Assembly: GCA_009663185.1 (NCBI GenBank)
Contig: VJZX01000027.1
Span: 1-40,003 of the forward strand
Direction of reading: 5' to 3'
DNA length: 40,003 nt
Source of the DNA: Isoptericola halalbus
GTDB lineage: Bacteria; Actinomycetota; Actinomycetes; Actinomycetales; Cellulomonadaceae
The notes under the pieces are model-generated. The model searched no databases and was not told the origin of the DNA. It saw nothing but the letters and a program-made list of their open reading frames with translations. This document shows, in pieces, positions 4,298 through 20,919 of the stretch. Made by a program: the position numbers and the translations under genes. Each line of letters opens with the position of its first letter. Positions within the stretch are counted from its first letter, which is position 1.

Positions 4298-5845
4298 ATG
4301 CCCCTGCGCCCCGACGGCCGCCTCAACCACGACCTGATGCCCGGTGAGAAGGGCCCCCAGGACGCATGCGGCGTCTTCGGTGTCTGGGCGCCGGGCGAAG
4401 AGGTCGCGAAGCTGGCGTACTTCGGCCTGTACGCCCTGCAGCACCGCGGCCAGGAGTCCGCGGGCATCGCCACGAGCAACGGCGACCAGATCCTCGTCTA
4501 CAAGGACATGGGCCTCGTCTCGCAGGTCTTCGACGAGACCGCGCTCAACGCCCTGACAGGCCACATCGCCGTCGGGCACTGCCGCTACTCGACGACGGGC
4601 GGCGTCACGTGGGAGAACGCCCAGCCGACGCTCGGTGCCACCGCGGCCGGCACCGTCGCGCTCGGGCACAACGGCAACCTCACCAACTCGGCCGACCTCG
4701 TCAACCTCGTCGCCGAGCGGTACGGTGCCCAGCGCCGCGGCGAGCTCGCGCGCGGCAACACGACCGACACGGCCCTCGTCACCGCTCTGCTCGCCGGGGA
4801 CGCCGACCACACGCTCGAGCAGACGGCGCTCGAGGTGCTGCCTCAGCTGCGCGGCGCCTTCTCGCTCGTCTTCATGGACGAGCGCACGCTCTACGCCGCG
4901 CGCGACCCGCAGGGCGTCCGCCCGCTCGTGCTCGGCCGCCTCCAGCGGGGCTGGGTCGTCGCGTCCGAGACGCCGGCGCTCGACATCGTCGGCGCGTCCT
5001 ACGTGCGCGACGTCGAGCCGGGCGAGCTCATCTGCATCGACGCCGACGGGCTGCGCTCGACCAGGTTCGCCGAGCCCGAGCGTGCCGGCTGCGTGTTCGA
5101 GTACGTCTACCTCGCCCGCCCGGACAACACGATCAACGGCCGCTCGGTGCACGCAGCCCGCGTCGAGATGGGTCGGGTGCTCGCGCGCGAGCACCCGGTC
5201 GACGCGGACCTGGTCATCCCGACGCCCGAGTCCGGCACCCCCGCCGCCGTCGGGTACGCGGCCGAGTCCGGCATCCCCTTCGGCCAGGGCCTGACCAAGA
5301 ACGCCTACGTGGGCCGCACGTTCATCCAGCCCTCGGACACCCTGCGCCAGCTCGGCATCCGCCTGAAGCTGAACCCGCTCAGGGAGGTCATCCGCGGCAA
5401 GCGGCTCGTCGTCGTGGACGACTCGATCGTGCGCGGCAACACGCAGCGCGCGCTCATCCGCATGCTTCGCGAGGCCGGCGCCGCGGAGGTGCACGTGCGC
5501 ATCTCGTCGCCGCCCGTCAAGTGGCCCTGCTTCTACGGCATCGACTTCGCGTCGCGCGCCGAGCTCATCGCCAACGGCCTCGCGGTCGAGGAGATCGGCC
5601 AGTCGCTGGGCGCCGACTCGCTCGGCTACATCTCCCTCGAGGGCATGATCGCGGCGACCGAGCAGCCGTCCTCGCAGCTGTGCGCGGCGTGCTTCACCGG
5701 CAAGTACCCGATCGAGCTGCCGTCGGCCGACCAGCTGGGCAAGCACCTGCTCGAGCAGGCGGAGCTCCCGCTCGGCGCACCGGAGGACGGACTGACCCAG
5801 CTGTCCGTGGCCGCCGGCGCGACGACCGCGCTCGACCACCCCTGA
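4298..5845 (+). CDS. purF: Amidophosphoribosyltransferase
   Basis: 515 residues, the normal length. PurF makes 5-phosphoribosylamine from PRPP and glutamine, the first committed step of de novo purine synthesis, in the cytosol. A short propeptide ends before Cys24 in DACGVFG, the N-terminal nucleophile of the class II glutaminase domain. YALQHRGQESAGIA follows. The phosphoribosyltransferase domain has the PRPP loop VVVDDSIVRGNT near 370-382. Cysteines in CVFEYVYLARPD, WPCFYGIDFA and LCAACFTGKYP fit the [4Fe-4S] class of PurF. purM follows after 59 nt on the same strand and the two end at a shared terminator, so they form an operon. Confidence 0.97.
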   Translation: MPLRPDGRLNHDLMPGEKGPQDACGVFGVWAPGEEVAKLAYFGLYALQHRGQESAGIATSNGDQILVYKDMGLVSQVFDETALNALTGHIAVGHCRYSTTGGVTWENAQPTLGATAAGTVALGHNGNLTNSADLVNLVAERYGAQRRGELARGNTTDTALVTALLAGDADHTLEQTALEVLPQLRGAFSLVFMDERTLYAARDPQGVRPLVLGRLQRGWVVASETPALDIVGASYVRDVEPGELICIDADGLRSTRFAEPERAGCVFEYVYLARPDNTINGRSVHAARVEMGRVLAREHPVDADLVIPTPESGTPAAVGYAAESGIPFGQGLTKNAYVGRTFIQPSDTLRQLGIRLKLNPLREVIRGKRLVVVDDSIVRGNTQRALIRMLREAGAAEVHVRISSPPVKWPCFYGIDFASRAELIANGLAVEEIGQSLGADSLGYISLEGMIAATEQPSSQLCAACFTGKYPIELPSADQLGKHLLEQAELPLGAPEDGLTQLSVAAGATTALDHP

Positions 5846-5904
5846 GCACCCCCGGCGGGACCCCGGGTCCGGCCGCGAACGACCGAGACGCAGGAGCCGA
5901 GCAC

Positions 5905-16932: not shown

Positions 16933-16960
16933 TTGTGGTTGGCGGTCGCCGCACTATGAT
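16933..16960 (+). promoter_or_regulatory. Promoter reading into the inserted elements
   Basis: TTGTGG (16933-16938), 16 nt, TATGAT (16955-16960), the best sigma-70-like promoter I found in the window. The -10 runs straight into the LexA-box core, so transcription would start inside the box, as in SOS promoters. It originally faced the gene now displaced to 20611 and now faces the mccF-like gene at 17024. Confidence 0.6.
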
Positions 16961-16973
16961 CGAACGTATGTTC
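16960..16973. promoter_or_regulatory. Left part of split LexA (SOS) box
   Basis: TCGAACGTATGTTC. The actinobacterial SOS box is TCGAAC-N4-GTTCGA. The last two bases are replaced by the element end (CTGGG). Joining this with 20601-20602 restores a perfect 16-bp box. It contains the 8-bp duplication ACGTATGT (16964-16971), repeated exactly at 20591-20598. Confidence 0.7.
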
Positions 16974-16998
16974 TGGGTATCTGCTTGAGCGAAGTAGC
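16974..16998 (+). repeat. Terminal inverted repeat, left end of left element
   Basis: Begins TGGGTATCTGCTTGAGCGAA. Matches 18468-18492 in the same orientation and 20564-20588 and 18431-18455 in inverted orientation. Confidence 0.85.
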
Positions 16999-17023
16999 GT
17001 CGATCTGTGGGAGGCTTCGGCGC

Positions 17024-18055
17024 ATGCGATACCCACGACTCCTGGAGCCTGGTGACCGGATCGGCGTGACCTCACCGTCGAGTGGCGTCCCAGCCCGGTT
17101 CGAGGGTCGCCTGCAGTTTGCCGTGTCGTGGCTCCGTGAACGGGGCTTCGACGTCGAGGTGGGGCGTTGTATGGATGGCGCGTCGCACGTCAGCGGCACT
17201 GCGCAGGAGCGTGCTAACGAACTGATGGCGATGCTGCTCGATCCGCGGGTTCGGGCCGTCATCCCGCCGTGGGGTGGTGAGACGGCGATCGACCTGGTTC
17301 CGTTCCTTGACTTTGGCAAGCTGCGTGATGCTGAGCCGACGTGGGTTGTGGGCTTCTCGGACATCTCCACGCTGTTGACCCCGCTGACTCTGGTCTCCGG
17401 CTGGGCGACGGTGCACGGTGCCAACCTCATGGACTTCCCGTACGAGCAGGCGAGCGGCCTGCTGCATCCGCTCGACGTGATCGCCGGCAATGAGCGCTCA
17501 CTTCGAGAGATCCAGCAGCGGCCCGCCGGGGTCCATCGAGTCGCGGCGTGGGATGACTGGGAGAACGACCCCACGCCGACCCGGTACCAGTGGAACGGTG
17601 CGGGGACGTGGCGGCGGCTCGATGGCGGCCGTGACGGCATCGACGTCACGGGTCGACTCATCGGCGGGTGCATCGAGACACTCAGTCACCTGGCTGGGAC
17701 GCCTTACGCGGACACGTCCGCGCTGCGTCGGTCCCACGGCAACGAGTCGTTGATCGTCTTCGTGGAAGCGGCCGAGGACAACGCCTTCAACATCTGCCGC
17801 GGCCTGCACGGCATGCGACTGAATGGGTTCTTCGACGGCGCGTCAGCGATTCTGGTCGGCCGCACGTCGGCACCTGACGCGCCGACGCTCACCCAGGACG
17901 AGGCGGTGCTTGATGCGCTCGGGAGCCTAGGCATCCCGATCATCGCCAACGTCGACTGTGGCCACATCCCGCCGCACATGACCCTGGTCAACGGTGCGAT
18001 CGGGCACCTCACCCACGACAACTCTGGTTCGCTTCTGGAGACACGGCTGGCCTGA
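17024..18055 (+). CDS. S66 family LD-carboxypeptidase, MccF-like
   Basis: 343 residues, the full family length. S66 serine peptidases include the LD-carboxypeptidases of peptidoglycan recycling and MccF, which cleaves the amide bond in microcin C and gives immunity. Visible motifs: PGDRIGVTSPSSG at the N-terminus, PPWGGETA (oxyanion region), the nucleophile elbow GFSDIS with Ser112, GGCIETLSHLAGT with Glu218, and DCGHIPPHMTLVNG with His314. These form the Ser-Glu-His triad. The PPWGG and RLIGG...IETL pattern is closer to MccF than to LdcA by eye. ATG at 17024 with GGGAGG at 17009-17014. It lies about 60 nt downstream of an SOS-type promoter and is the main passenger of the left mobile element. 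Confidence 0.88.
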   Translation: MRYPRLLEPGDRIGVTSPSSGVPARFEGRLQFAVSWLRERGFDVEVGRCMDGASHVSGTAQERANELMAMLLDPRVRAVIPPWGGETAIDLVPFLDFGKLRDAEPTWVVGFSDISTLLTPLTLVSGWATVHGANLMDFPYEQASGLLHPLDVIAGNERSLREIQQRPAGVHRVAAWDDWENDPTPTRYQWNGAGTWRRLDGGRDGIDVTGRLIGGCIETLSHLAGTPYADTSALRRSHGNESLIVFVEAAEDNAFNICRGLHGMRLNGFFDGASAILVGRTSAPDAPTLTQDEAVLDALGSLGIPIIANVDCGHIPPHMTLVNGAIGHLTHDNSGSLLETRLA

Positions 18056-18102
18056 TGCTGGCCCGGAGTCGCCGAACAGGGCGCGACTCGAGACGGGACA
18101 AC

Positions 18103-18333
18103 CTAGTCGGAGCCGCCAGGTGGCCGATCGAGTACGAGCTCCTTGAGGCTGCCTCGGGGCTTGCATCCAGCACACCGACGCAGTGCTCCCGGGGGACGAC
18201 GAGCGTATGGCCGGGCGCAAGCGCACCCCCCGGGAAGCGGCAAGAACGCGACAGCGTCCCCTTCTCGCGCAACCCAAACTCCATCCCCGGACTCAATCAG
18301 CCTGCAGAACACACAGGTCGTCGAATCATCCAC
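18103..18333 (-). pseudogene. HIT-family hydrolase remnant (N-terminal half, frameshifted)
   Basis: From the GTG at 18333 the frame reads MDDSTTCVFCRLIESGDG...AVAFLPLP, the start of a HIT protein (CxFC zinc pair, then the vAFl strand). At the run of six C at 18227-18232 the frame is lost, but removing one base gives GGALAPGHTLVVPREHCVGVLDASPEA, the textbook continuation. The original frame resumes at SLKELVLDRPP and stops at 18103. The catalytic His-x-His-x-His motif in the second half is missing, so it should be inactive. It is convergent with the mccF-like gene inside the same element. Confidence 0.7.
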
Positions 18334-18430
18334 TCCGCTGCCTCCACTTCCGCGCCGCCTGACTGGTCGGCCACGGGGATTGTGGCGGGCCCCTTGGCAC
18401 GCGCCGCACCAGTTCGACCATCTCGATCCC
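18334..18430. other. Non-coding end of left element
   Basis: No supported gene. Short frames here run across the element boundary and have no ribosome binding site. Confidence 0.35.
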
Positions 18431-18455
18431 GAGACTTCACGTAAGTAGGCACCCA
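18431..18455 (-). repeat. Terminal inverted repeat, right end of left element
   Basis: On the minus strand it reads TGGGTGCCTACTTACGTGAA and so on. It shares the TTACGTGAAGT block with the right end of the second element (20564-20588). Confidence 0.8.
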
Positions 18456-18467
18456 GAACATACGTTC
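18456..18467. repeat. Junction copy of the GAAC-N4-GTTC core
   Basis: GAACATACGTTC lies between the two elements. It is the exact reverse complement of the outer copies GAACGTATGTTC at 16962-16973 and 20589-20600. It keeps the LexA core but not the outer TC/GA. Confidence 0.8.
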
Positions 18468-18492
18468 CGGGAATCTGCTTGAGTGAAGTCGT
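18468..18492 (+). repeat. Terminal inverted repeat, left end of right element
   Basis: CGGGAATCTGCTTGAGTGAA and so on. It shares the TTGAGYGAAGT block with the left end of the first element. Confidence 0.85.
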
Positions 18493-18674
18493 CTAGCCCG
18501 TAGACAGACGCTCGGCGTGTTCGTCACGGTTTGGAGCATCCTCGCCTTGACCTAAGACAGGCTTGAGACCGCCCGCCTTCCTCCTGCCCGGACAGGCCCC
18601 CAAAGATAGTCGGCCGGACCGGGCCAGCCGCGGACGGGACCTGCCCGGCGAGGCGGCAACCCGAGGCCAACGAC

Positions 18675-18680
18675 TACGTT
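18675..18680 (+). promoter_or_regulatory. -10 box of leaderless promoter for the methyltransferase
   Basis: TACGTT, 6 nt before the GTG at 18687, with no Shine-Dalgarno sequence. The passenger therefore carries its own host-type promoter. Confidence 0.5.
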
Positions 18681-18686
18681 TGCTCC

Positions 18687-19466
18687 GTGGTGGTTTCTGA
18701 CGATTCTCAGAAGACGACGAGCGCTCACCGGCCGGGCGGTACTTCTAGCCAGCCGTGGCTAGAGCTCGCTCCGGACTACGAGCGGGCCCGAGCCAAGGAG
18801 GACTCGCTGGATCGGCTGGTGGAGTGGCCTGCGCAGCGAGACCTCCTAGGTGACATCACTGGACGCTCGGTGCTCGATGTCGGCTGCGGCAACGGTGCCA
18901 AGCTCGCCGAGCTGGTGCGAGACGGTGCGGCCGCCTCTGTCGGTGTCGACATCAGCGGCAACTTCACCGCTGCCTGGCCGCCTGGCCTGGAACTCATCCG
19001 AGGTGACCTCTCCGATCTGGACTCAGTGCACGGTCTTGCCGGTCGGACGTTCGACCGGATTCTGTTCCTGCAGTCCTTCGGCTACGCGAAGGATCCTGTC
19101 CGCACCTTGCAGGCGGCGCGGGCGATGCTGGCCGACGATGGATTCATCCTGCTGACCAGGACCCAACCGATCCGCTACGCCGTCGAACGGGCGGAACAGA
19201 ACGGGACCTCCCTGGGCGAGGAGTACTTCTCCGCCGGTACTTTCACCTACCGCAGCGGCTGGAATGACCAGATCGCCCTCACGAAACGCACCTACACCAT
19301 CTCCGACCTGATCAACGTGTTCAGTACGGCCGGGCTGTGGATCGAGACCGCTATCGAGCCCCAGCTGTCCGAGGACGCCCGACGCCGCTACCCGCACAAG
19401 CAGGCGTGGATGAACAAGTACCTCGGGATCCTGATCTTCAAGCTCCGACCCCATCCCAGCCAGTAG
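18687..19466 (+). CDS. Class I SAM-dependent methyltransferase (IS passenger)
   Basis: 259 residues. SAM-binding motif I is VLDVGCGNG at 62-70, motif II VGVDIS lies about 25 residues on, then GDLSDLDSV and the motif IV-like FDRILFLQSFGY, and LADDGFILLTRT for the post-motif region. This is a Methyltransf_11/25-type Rossmann fold. The C-terminal third (YFSAGTFTYRSGW...TISDLINVFSTAGLWIETAIEP) resembles small-molecule methyltransferases. The substrate cannot be read from the sequence; modification of an antibiotic or its target is one guess from the context. It is convergent with the transposase. GTG start chosen because TACGTT-N6 precedes it. Confidence 0.85.
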   Translation: MVVSDDSQKTTSAHRPGGTSSQPWLELAPDYERARAKEDSLDRLVEWPAQRDLLGDITGRSVLDVGCGNGAKLAELVRDGAAASVGVDISGNFTAAWPPGLELIRGDLSDLDSVHGLAGRTFDRILFLQSFGYAKDPVRTLQAARAMLADDGFILLTRTQPIRYAVERAEQNGTSLGEEYFSAGTFTYRSGWNDQIALTKRTYTISDLINVFSTAGLWIETAIEPQLSEDARRRYPHKQAWMNKYLGILIFKLRPHPSQ

Positions 19467-19575
19467 ACGAACCCGGTCGCTAGGCAGTCCGCAGCGACAC
19501 GATAATCGCAGCCAGAACGGACCCCGCGAGGGTAGGTGCAAGTCCGCCTGGGAATTGTGAGACCCGAACGAGCCG

Positions 19576-19605
19576 CTCGGCCGGCCGGCACCTCGGCTGG
19601 CTGAG
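19576..19605. terminator. Possible bidirectional terminator between methyltransferase and transposase
   Basis: CTCGGCCGGCC (19576-19586) can pair with GGCTGGCTGAG (19595-19605), an 11-bp stem including two G·U pairs with an 8-nt loop. It ends one base before the transposase stop codon. Confidence 0.4.
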
Positions 19606-19606
19606 G

Positions 19607-20554
19607 TCAGTTCGCGGACAGAGTCAGGTCCTTCAGTGGGTGCGGAGCGGAGGCTACGGCCTGTTGGAGAAGCCGGTAGAACAGCAGGCCGCGGGAGCGG
19701 GAGTCGCGGCGGTTGAACCGGAACGTGTACTCGTCGAGGTAGTAGGGCAGGTGCTCAGTGGCGATGCCGTAGTGCAGCGTTCCGATCATCCATCGCTTGA
19801 GCAGCGAGGCGACCATGTGCAGACCCGGCAACAGGGTCTCCTTGTCGGCGGTGCGCATCGCGACGGTGCGCCGATGGATGTAGCCCATGTCGGCCAGCCG
19901 GCGGAACATCTGCGCCCCGTCGGTGTGGACCTCGCTGCCGGACGCGATGACGGCCTGCGCGAATTCGAGGATTTCGATCGTGCCAGGCCGGGTGGCGACC
20001 TGTGCCCGCATCCGGCCAATCTTGCGGCCGTTCTTCTCCACGGCGAGCATCACGCACGCCTTGTCGGTGCTGGCGCCGTAGCCGCCGCGCGAGACGCCGC
20101 CGATGAACGTCTCGTCGAGCTCGACCACCACACCAGGACCGCCGAGCAGGTCCCGACCCGGGCGGACCATCGCCCGGCGCAGCTTGTGCAACCACGCCCA
20201 GGCCGTCTCATACGAGCCGAACCCGAGCACACGCTGCAGCCCCAGCGCCGAGACCCCGCCCTTCTGCGACGTCACGAACCACACCGCGGCGAACCACGTC
20301 GCCAACGGCGTGCGCGTGCGATGAAAGATCGTGCCCGCAGTCACCGACGTGCGCCGCGCGCAGGCCTTGCACATCCACTGGCCCCTGCCCGTCTTCCAAA
20401 AACCGTCAGCACCGCACGCCGGGCAGCGGAACCCGGCCGGCCAGCGCAAGCCGGCCAAGTACTCCAGACACGCATCGTCGTCAGGAAACCACGCGAGCAG
20501 ATCCGCGTAGGTCCGCGGATAATCGATCCCCGCCTCGGGATGGCCGTCCTTCAT
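19607..20554 (-). CDS. IS1595-family transposase
   Basis: 315 residues. An N-terminal zinc ribbon (FRCPACGADGFWKT...WMCKACARRTS; Cys44, 47, 62, 65) is followed by TAGTIFHRTRTPLATWFAAVW and the DDE-type ISXO2/IS1595 domain. VVVELDETFIGG holds Asp147 and SEVHTDGAQMF holds Asp212. LPGLHMVASLLKRWMIGT carries the region of the third catalytic residue, where I see His246 rather than a clear Glu or Asn. The ending HLPYYLDEYTFRFNRRDSRSRGLLFYRLLQQAV is typical of the actinobacterial branch. Full length with no frameshift, so probably active. The start ATG is about 10 nt inside the right terminal repeat, with at best a weak Shine-Dalgarno sequence. Confidence 0.93.
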   Translation of the reverse strand: MKDGHPEAGIDYPRTYADLLAWFPDDDACLEYLAGLRWPAGFRCPACGADGFWKTGRGQWMCKACARRTSVTAGTIFHRTRTPLATWFAAVWFVTSQKGGVSALGLQRVLGFGSYETAWAWLHKLRRAMVRPGRDLLGGPGVVVELDETFIGGVSRGGYGASTDKACVMLAVEKNGRKIGRMRAQVATRPGTIEILEFAQAVIASGSEVHTDGAQMFRRLADMGYIHRRTVAMRTADKETLLPGLHMVASLLKRWMIGTLHYGIATEHLPYYLDEYTFRFNRRDSRSRGLLFYRLLQQAVASAPHPLKDLTLSAN

Positions 20555-20563
20555 CCGTCCGAG

Positions 20564-20588
20564 GCTACTTCACGTAAGCAGATACCCA
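20564..20588 (-). repeat. Terminal inverted repeat, right end of right element
   Basis: On the minus strand TGGGTATCTGCTTACGTGAA and so on. It is nearly identical to the left end of the first element for 13 bases, then differs in the AC/GA position that separates right from left ends. Confidence 0.85.
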
Positions 20589-20602
20589 GAACGTATGTTC
20601 GA
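20589..20602. promoter_or_regulatory. Right part of split LexA (SOS) box
   Basis: GAACGTATGTTCGA. With TCGAAC from 16960-16965 it restores TCGAACGTATGTTCGA. It carries the second copy of the 8-bp duplication ACGTATGT (20591-20598). Confidence 0.7.
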
Positions 20603-20610
20603 GTCTGACC

Positions 20611-20919
20611 ATGCTCTACACCGCGGTCGCCAGGCGGCCGCAGGTGTGTCGCGGGCTCGGACGGGTGGTCCCGGCTCGGCCAGTGCCCCGGCTTGGTCGG
20701 GACCCCGTCTCCCGCGACCCCGCCACCGGGGTGACGCGATGGACGGCCCCGACCGGGCACCGGCACGACCGGCCACTCACCATCGCCGATCCCGGCCGCG
20801 ACCCGGTCCGCGACCCGAGCCAACCGATCGGCGACCCGAGCCATCACCCGGCCATGGGCGGTGACGAACGCCCGCCCGGAGGTGTCGCGCCGCCGAGCAG
20901 CGATCTACCGCCGTTCTGA
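20611..20919 (+). pseudogene. Probable remnant of a DUF222/HNH endonuclease (13E12-type) gene
   Basis: The ATG at 20611 lies 8 nt beyond the restored SOS box. About 35 codons in, the frame reads VSRDPATGVTRWTAPTGHRHDRPLT, which resembles the C-terminal tail of DUF222/HNH proteins, where a tryptophan-rich strand follows the HNH motif. The ~400 residues that should precede it, including DUF222 and the HNH Cys/His residues, are absent, so this would be an internal-deletion remnant. In mycobacteria, genes of this family carry LexA boxes, which agrees with the promoter found at 16933-16973. The tail match is from memory and the frame could be fortuitous. Confidence 0.4.

Follow-up and report, generated by a model that had tools for sequence, protein, structure and literature searches.

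Some insertion sequences (IS) target repetitive extragenic palindromic (REP) sequences, and the genes of the integron integrase and of the Tn5 transposase are regulated by LexA. Mutator-type transposases of TnGBS, ISLre2 and ISKra4 are reported to insert upstream of sigmaA promoters, 15-17 bp before the -35 box (PMC3942029), and this is the nearest known kind of targeting to the case described here. In a 40,003-nucleotide stretch of Isoptericola halalbus (GenBank assembly GCA_009663185.1, contig VJZX01000027.1, positions 1 to 40,003; hereafter the window), two adjoining IS1595-type elements lie inside an SOS box, the operator of the LexA repressor. Comparison with related insertions indicates, with a probability that we put at roughly 0.9, that one IS1595 transposase lineage inserts into LexA operators and that the window is one case of it. 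The LexA operator adds a new class of target to those of an already known IS family.

The IS1595 family, reportedly described by Siguier and colleagues (2009), is recognised in these elements by a zinc ribbon and DDE transposase, short inverted repeats, 8-bp duplications and passenger genes. As in the REP-targeting elements, insertion is into a conserved palindrome, but REPs are repeats and not operators of a stress regulator, and their motif is not known to change with a regulator of the host. Integrons and Tn5 are also mobile elements tied to the SOS response; there LexA regulates the expression of the element, whereas here the operator is the insertion target. Many box-targeting copies are about 1.0-1.1 kb long and nearly filled by the transposase gene, and judged from this length they carry no separate target-selecting protein of the Tn7 type. 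TnGBS, ISLre2 and ISKra4 have in common with the present elements that they are DDE lineages with a clade-specific aim at regulatory DNA that spares genes. However, those elements choose general promoters, while the LexA-box elements choose the dyad centre of one repressor's operator, with a motif that varies between host phyla, and the window transposase is of the IS1595 and not of the Mutator (IS256-like) type. Within IS1595, ISApl4 (IS1016 group) is reported to have AT-rich 8-bp repeats (PMC12561309); these resemble the sites of many relatives outside the two clades described below, and the box-targeting clades differ from it in target. Among the matches listed in the full-text literature, which mostly excludes subscription papers, there was no description of an IS aimed at LexA boxes and none of LexA-operator targeting for the IS1595 family; the papers that mention both IS1595 and LexA seemed unrelated, judged from the openings of their abstracts.

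Results

The window transposase was found as a single copy in the source genome, so relatives were gathered instead of genomic copies. They comprised the best 80 loci of a species-genome scan, to which loci retrieved by searching further genomes and plasmids were added (loci are given L numbers and genomes G numbers). Element ends were set from the 22-base inverted repeats and the 8-bp duplication only, without use of the box, and were taken as clear when the inverted repeats agreed in at least 19 of 22 positions and the duplication in at least 7 of 8. In this way 61 insertions were scored, namely 44 of the best 80 relatives, 16 others and the window. The score covered the duplication and 12 outside bases on each side and counted no letter of the element, which rules out an artefact of GAAC supplied by the element itself.

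TCGAAC-N4-GTTCGA is the actinobacterial LexA box and TACTGT-N8-ACAGTA is that of E. coli, or the gamma/beta type. In the actinobacterial clade, which includes the window, 24 of the 25 sites matched the former in at least 9 of 12 positions (mean 10.6; exception L034). In the gamma/beta clade, 10/11 sites reached at least 9/12 for the latter, the motif of its own hosts (mean 10.8; exception L128), and 6/11 reached 12/12. With either motif, none of the 25 IS1595 relatives outside these clades scored more than 5/12. As background, scores of at least 9/12 in the adjacent host DNA were found at 105 of 126,727 positions for the actinobacterial motif and at 13 of 51,909 for the proteobacterial one, and when the motif was shifted by -6 to +6 (nonzero) from the duplication the mean score was 4.3 or less. 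Moreover, the majority-rule consensus of the sites alone contains TCGAACAnATGTTCGA and TACTGTATATATATACAGTA. Together with shuffles of the window, the site scores and these background and offset controls rule out chance palindromes. The first-pass annotation, made from the window only, had proposed that the element selects the LexA operator palindrome. The relatives of the same clade bear this out in 24/25 clear cases, with TCGAAC-N4-GTTCGA enriched in the collected flanks and with at most two palindrome-less sites overall, L034 (7/12) and L128 (8/12). It did not foresee the second clade at the different LexA box of its own hosts, which we consider the stronger evidence.

The 8-bp duplication corresponds to AC-N4-GT of the actinobacterial box, or to the exact 8-bp spacer of the proteobacterial CTGT-N8-ACAG. 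The sequences place the two points of strand transfer 4 bp from the dyad axis, one to each side, and either orientation occurs. Judging by these sites, the elements insert into the host's LexA operator at its centre of symmetry, and the motif differs between host groups.

The maximum-likelihood tree of 93 transposases placed each clade on one branch, with support of 100/99 and 100/95, and the three labels (the two clades and the outside relatives) on 56 of the insertions needed the minimum possible number of changes on it. Transposases of the two clades share about 50% identity. A tree uniting the two clades was not rejected (p-value of the approximately unbiased test, p-AU, 0.46; 49 insertions), and operator targeting may, on this phylogeny, have had a single origin, with the motif changing afterwards, or two origins. 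ISCsp2, a label seen in annotations, falls inside the proteobacterial clade, and the window, Marinomonas and ISCsp2 transposases all match the IS1595 model NF033547.

The window insert agrees with this picture, and its features are collected in Table 1. The window transposase exceeds the IS1595 cut-offs for PF12762 (87.2 bits; cut-off 27), PF12760 (51.3; 25.4) and NF033547 (184.5; 75), and terminal inverted repeats with an 8-bp target duplication, a hallmark of IS1595, are present. The first-pass description of two adjoining IS1595-type elements inside a LexA box is confirmed. TTGTGG occupies 16933-16938 and TATGAT, after a 16-bp gap, 16955-16960; TCGAACGTATGTTC can be read directly at 16960-16973. 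Excision of 16972-20590 with one copy of ACGTATGT restores TCGAACGTATGTTCGA, a perfect box right behind the promoter-like pair, as had been claimed. The split box is thus the exact SOS box TCGA[ACGTATGT]TCGA with elements A and B abutting inside it, and it stands where an operator would be expected, behind a promoter-like pair (by consensus only) and before the relic of a DUF222/HNH gene. The core GAAC-N4-GTTC was found at all three boundaries named in that description (16962, 18456 and 20589), which are its only occurrences in the window, against 0.43 expected by chance; none of 100 shuffles reached three.

Table 1. Features of the split SOS box and its insert in the window
Feature	Position	Strand	Basis and remarks
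Promoter-like pair TTGTGG-N16-TATGAT	16933..16960	+	Points into box and insert; consensus match only
Left part of split SOS box, TCGA[ACGTATGT]TC	16960..16973		8-bp duplication at 16964-16971; empty site scores 12/12
Element A, IS1595-type ends, without transposase	16972..18457	+	Terminal repeats D1, D2, I1-I3
S66 peptidase (LD-carboxypeptidase), passenger of element A	17024..18055	+	Pfam PF02016 6.4e-30, PF17676 1.2e-23
Middle box core GAAC[ATAC]GTTC	18456..18467		Its 8-mer (18458-18465) reads as the outer duplications do in reverse complement
Element B, IS1595-type, with transposase	18466..20590	-	Terminal repeats and transposase match
Methyltransferase, passenger of element B	18687..19466	+	Pfam PF13489 6e-12
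IS1595 transposase, zinc ribbon and DDE domain	19607..20554	-	PF12762 1.5e-24, PF12760 1.1e-13; NF033547
Right part of split SOS box, GA[ACGTATGT]TCGA	20589..20602		Duplication at 20591-20598
Relic of DUF222/HNH gene once served by the box	20599..20814	+	Start and end kept, middle lost

At the middle boundary the box core is present as described; however, its 8-mer is ACATACGT, the reverse complement of ACGTATGT, and not a third direct copy. Such an inverted middle box would follow from recombination between the outer inverted repeats or from insertion of the pair in the other orientation. The outer inverted arms of the insert are 43 nt long and 86% complementary, and inversion of the whole insert between them explains the middle 8-mer without further assumptions. 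Inversions between terminal inverted repeats are reported for other IS (PMC3004938).

The gene behind the box was followed through genomes of the same genus. The right flank aligns across the restored junction with empty boxes in L189, L190 (G778) and L191 (G791). At L190, a 535-aa reading frame behind the box matches DUF222 proteins of other loci and has an HNH-like end by eye; L189 aligns at both ends of such a DUF222 gene, and L191 at the start only. Two blocks of the relic can be aligned with L189 and L190 over the restored junction, and 20692-20814 has a 68% match to the L190 protein. At the orthologous place in the two nearest relatives, G778 and G791, alignment is confined to the flanks on both sides and does not extend to the box and the DUF222 stretch between them, so these two genomes give no empty-site comparison. 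The source genome has near-matches of the box type at its own SOS genes, ACGAACATCTGTTCGA before recA and TCGAACAGATGTTTGA before lexA, and in its 4.1 Mb GAAC-N4-GTTC occurs 34 times versus 8 for the reversed control.

Hosts in the actinobacterial clade include Xylanimicrobium, Actinotalea, Jiangella, Humibacillus, Agromyces, Geodermatophilus, Mycobacterium, Rhodococcus, Arthrobacter and Sinomonas, among others. A DUF222 or DUF222/HNH gene lies beside 15 of these 25 insertions (eight by Pfam, seven by tblastn); at L026 the matching sequence is the distal end of a gene that lies 1.7 kb away. With the window excluded, the DUF222 gene is left of the transposase in ten cases and right in four, which means that both insertion orientations occur. 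In the proteobacterial clade, the insertion at L141 is about 20 bp before the probable lexA start codon (TIGR00498, 222.7 bits; cut-off 110.95), and that at L060 lies before a UmuD-type S24 peptidase. The umuD-type flank of L122 is 77% like that of L060 and is in the opposite orientation. The Marinomonas loci L055 and L056 represent one orthologous place before a topoisomerase gene. Two members without clear ends, and therefore uncounted, are L139, at the start of an annotated umuD, and L133, which adjoins an SRAP gene.

The element ends determine what is left of the operator. TC/GA ends occur in the window and in 10/24 other actinobacterial insertions, and in all these copies both ends rebuild GAAC-N4-GTTC. 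The earlier expectation that each insertion keeps a 12-bp core on both sides is therefore correct for copies with such ends and does not extend to the whole clade. Eight of the 11 proteobacterial insertions have AA/TT ends, leaving only half an operator on each side. On visual inspection, most actinobacterial copies share a -10-like motif, TAnnnT, whose position behind the left end is constant. The motif CTG-N10-CAG lies close to the transposase start in 4/12 proteobacterial copies, which all belong to the ISCsp2/L141 branch; in the first 60 element bases of L141, L130, L133 and L139 this motif (CTGGATGGAAACCCAG or a close variant) lies just ahead of the transposase start and looks like a weak LexA box. 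In copies with TC/GA ends, the -10-like bases would bring the transposase start next to a rebuilt LexA box, which could place transposition under SOS control.

Rebuilt or half-kept boxes would also account for the stacking of elements, as in the window, L037 and L206. At L037 (3942-6912, Sinomonas) two elements are stacked with the spacer ACACATGT between them, like in the window. At L206 (4340-7257) the ends of three IS1595-type elements lie side by side with the 8-bp box-like spacers ATATATGT and ATATAGAT, in a cassette-like array that adjoins a DUF222-like gene; the right end of the third element was not found there. With respect to cargo, the passenger of the Sinomonas plasmid copy L134 (3087-3446) is an Imm8 immunity gene, and the S66 peptidase of element A is one that we take to be MccF-like; the two genes give hints of self-immunity cargo. 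The long Arthrobacter element L034 holds a Mutator-family transposase gene (5007-5852), probably a nested insertion.

Clade members without clear ends in the tree were L024, L028, L029, L033, L042, L043, L046 and L098 (actinobacterial) and L070, L133 and L139 (proteobacterial); L044, L059 and L138 were left out of the tree. Evidence that is one-sided or has a mismatched duplication, in the form of half boxes, was seen in L024, L028, L029, L033, L043, L070, L133 and L139. The box evidence was poor in L046, and no half box was found for L042, L059 and L098. Three plasmid end remnants of the ISCsp2 type were also seen; L212 and L213 share the half box of L133, and L214 has no half box. In L024, L033 and L133 there are half boxes on both flanks but the 8-mers differ (in L033, ACACATGT versus TCAGGTGT), a pattern that recombination between copies inserted at two boxes would leave. 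L044, L207 and L208 form a divergent transposase group in three genomes, with alike flanking sequences adjoining the gene and no clear ends, and this transposase may be a fixed or domesticated copy. At L050 (1760-2820), in a metagenome-assembled genome of the Planctomycetes-Verrucomicrobia-Chlamydiae (PVC) group, a related IS is flanked by GCAATT on one side and AATTGC on the other, and its 8-bp duplication is imperfect (6/8); this long palindrome is possibly an operator of another kind.

Some loci were not entered because their ends were not found (L129, L131, L132, L133, L138, L139, L098, L100 and L103), and L101 and L125 were left aside. L097 is the place of L020, and L104-L121, L123, L124, L126 and L127 repeat places already counted or tried. 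L055 and L056 share flanks and count as one event, L021 and L048 share one flank within one genome, and L060 and L122 have the similar flank noted above. The outside insertions L068, L069, L072 and L078 come from one genome, as do L142 and L144-L146. Two further searches for clade copies (6 and 5 genomes) gave nothing new, and a pattern scan of viral contigs with two queries gave no confirmed relative; phage records gave three distant matches of about 30% identity. Of the 23 records in which E. coli genomes matched the Enterobacter element, none spanned most of it, and the 20 listed were a 37-base flank match.

Discussion

The results suggest an element that is aimed at the DNA-damage control circuit itself. 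A transposase dimer would recognise the symmetrical operator, either by reading its half-sites or by docking on the complex of LexA and operator. If the DNA is read directly, which we consider about an even chance, the recognition surface would have followed the LexA motif of the host. The element would gain a landing place available in most hosts, before damage genes that are often dispensable and outside essential ones. In the window two such elements have piled up at the box of a DUF222/HNH gene.

The most serious alternative is that host LexA, bound at its operator, recruits the transposase, so that the motif shifts with the host while DNA reading by the transposase stays unchanged. It agrees with this that each clade uses the LexA motif of its own hosts despite only about 50% identity between the transposases, that insertion is centred on the axis of the LexA dimer, and that a single origin of the trait was not rejected. 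However, the cuts fall within the LexA footprint, where bound LexA might block rather than guide, and near-identical transposases in hosts with different LexA motifs were not found among the collected relatives; we hold guidance by LexA as a tentative possibility. A related and speculative idea, to which we give about the same low confidence, is that the transposase uses the LexA-operator system as an address, docking there or acting when LexA leaves during DNA damage; a single transposase lineage could in this way locate its sites in phyla whose LexA motifs differ, jumps would be timed to the SOS response, and rebuilt boxes at the element ends would let more elements stack into cassette-like arrays. 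Recognition by something other than direct reading or LexA guidance appears unlikely.

Many DDE transposases have weakly symmetrical targets, and the outside IS1595 relatives lie at AT-rich sites, so a plain preference for palindromes, with the match to the SOS box incidental, might be considered. Two clades would then need a coincidental match to two different host LexA motifs, and the targets include some in front of lexA, umuD-type and SRAP genes as well as many that neighbour DUF222 genes. Preference for any palindrome was rejected on account of these two coincidences and we regard it as very improbable. The frequency of DUF222 genes beside the actinobacterial insertions could instead mean that DUF222/HNH cassettes are targeted, for example at breaks made by their nuclease, with the box again incidental. 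This was rejected and is hardly credible, since the proteobacterial insertions had no DUF222 match and include lexA and umuD-type operators, and L020, L031 and the Sinomonas plasmid locus L134 are box-centred with no DUF222 match found. Finally, insertions upstream of dispensable genes are tolerated, but random insertion with survival of only harmless promoter insertions has a negligible probability, because 34/36 sites score at least 9/12 with the dyad as their centre, exact to one base pair, and no other offset gives a match of this kind.

Several observations weigh against the operator-targeting reading. Of the 80 relatives from the first search, 36 had no clear ends, and the groups were drawn up after the sites had been seen, yet they hold all clear-ended members of both clades. 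L034 and L128 fit poorly, the latter having the half box CTGG...ACAG. A prediction fixed beforehand, that further clade copies lie at boxes, found partial support in three new genomes: in L206 the left half box is partial (TAGA[ATATATGT]), in L208 TCGA forms a half box on the right, both have a DUF222-like gene nearby, and L207 could not be resolved. We consider the support from these genomes weak. No DUF222 gene was found in 10/25 actinobacterial insertions, and among these only the neighbour of the Jiangella locus L020, a 2OG-Fe(II) oxygenase of the AlkB type, hints at DNA repair. A canonical SOS gene or the like lies beside only 3/11 proteobacterial insertions (L141, L060 and L122); L055, L056, L057 and L140 have other neighbours, and L058, L128, L130 and L143 nothing telling. 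Neighbours were chosen as open frames near the site, and some of these frames may be wrong.

IS are usually viewed as inserting nearly at random or as picking simple motifs, whereas the lineage described here targets the operator bound by LexA, the master repressor in the response to DNA damage. The target motif differs between host phyla in step with LexA, which provides a direct link between transposition and the SOS response. Insertions can cut the operators of lexA, umuD or repair genes and may reshape mutagenesis, and cargo such as methyltransferase, S66 peptidase, Imm8 and rhodanese genes is parked at SOS promoters. The insertions also serve as natural markers from which LexA operators can be mapped in bacteria not yet studied, and they offer a clean system for asking how a DDE transposase finds the binding site of a regulator.

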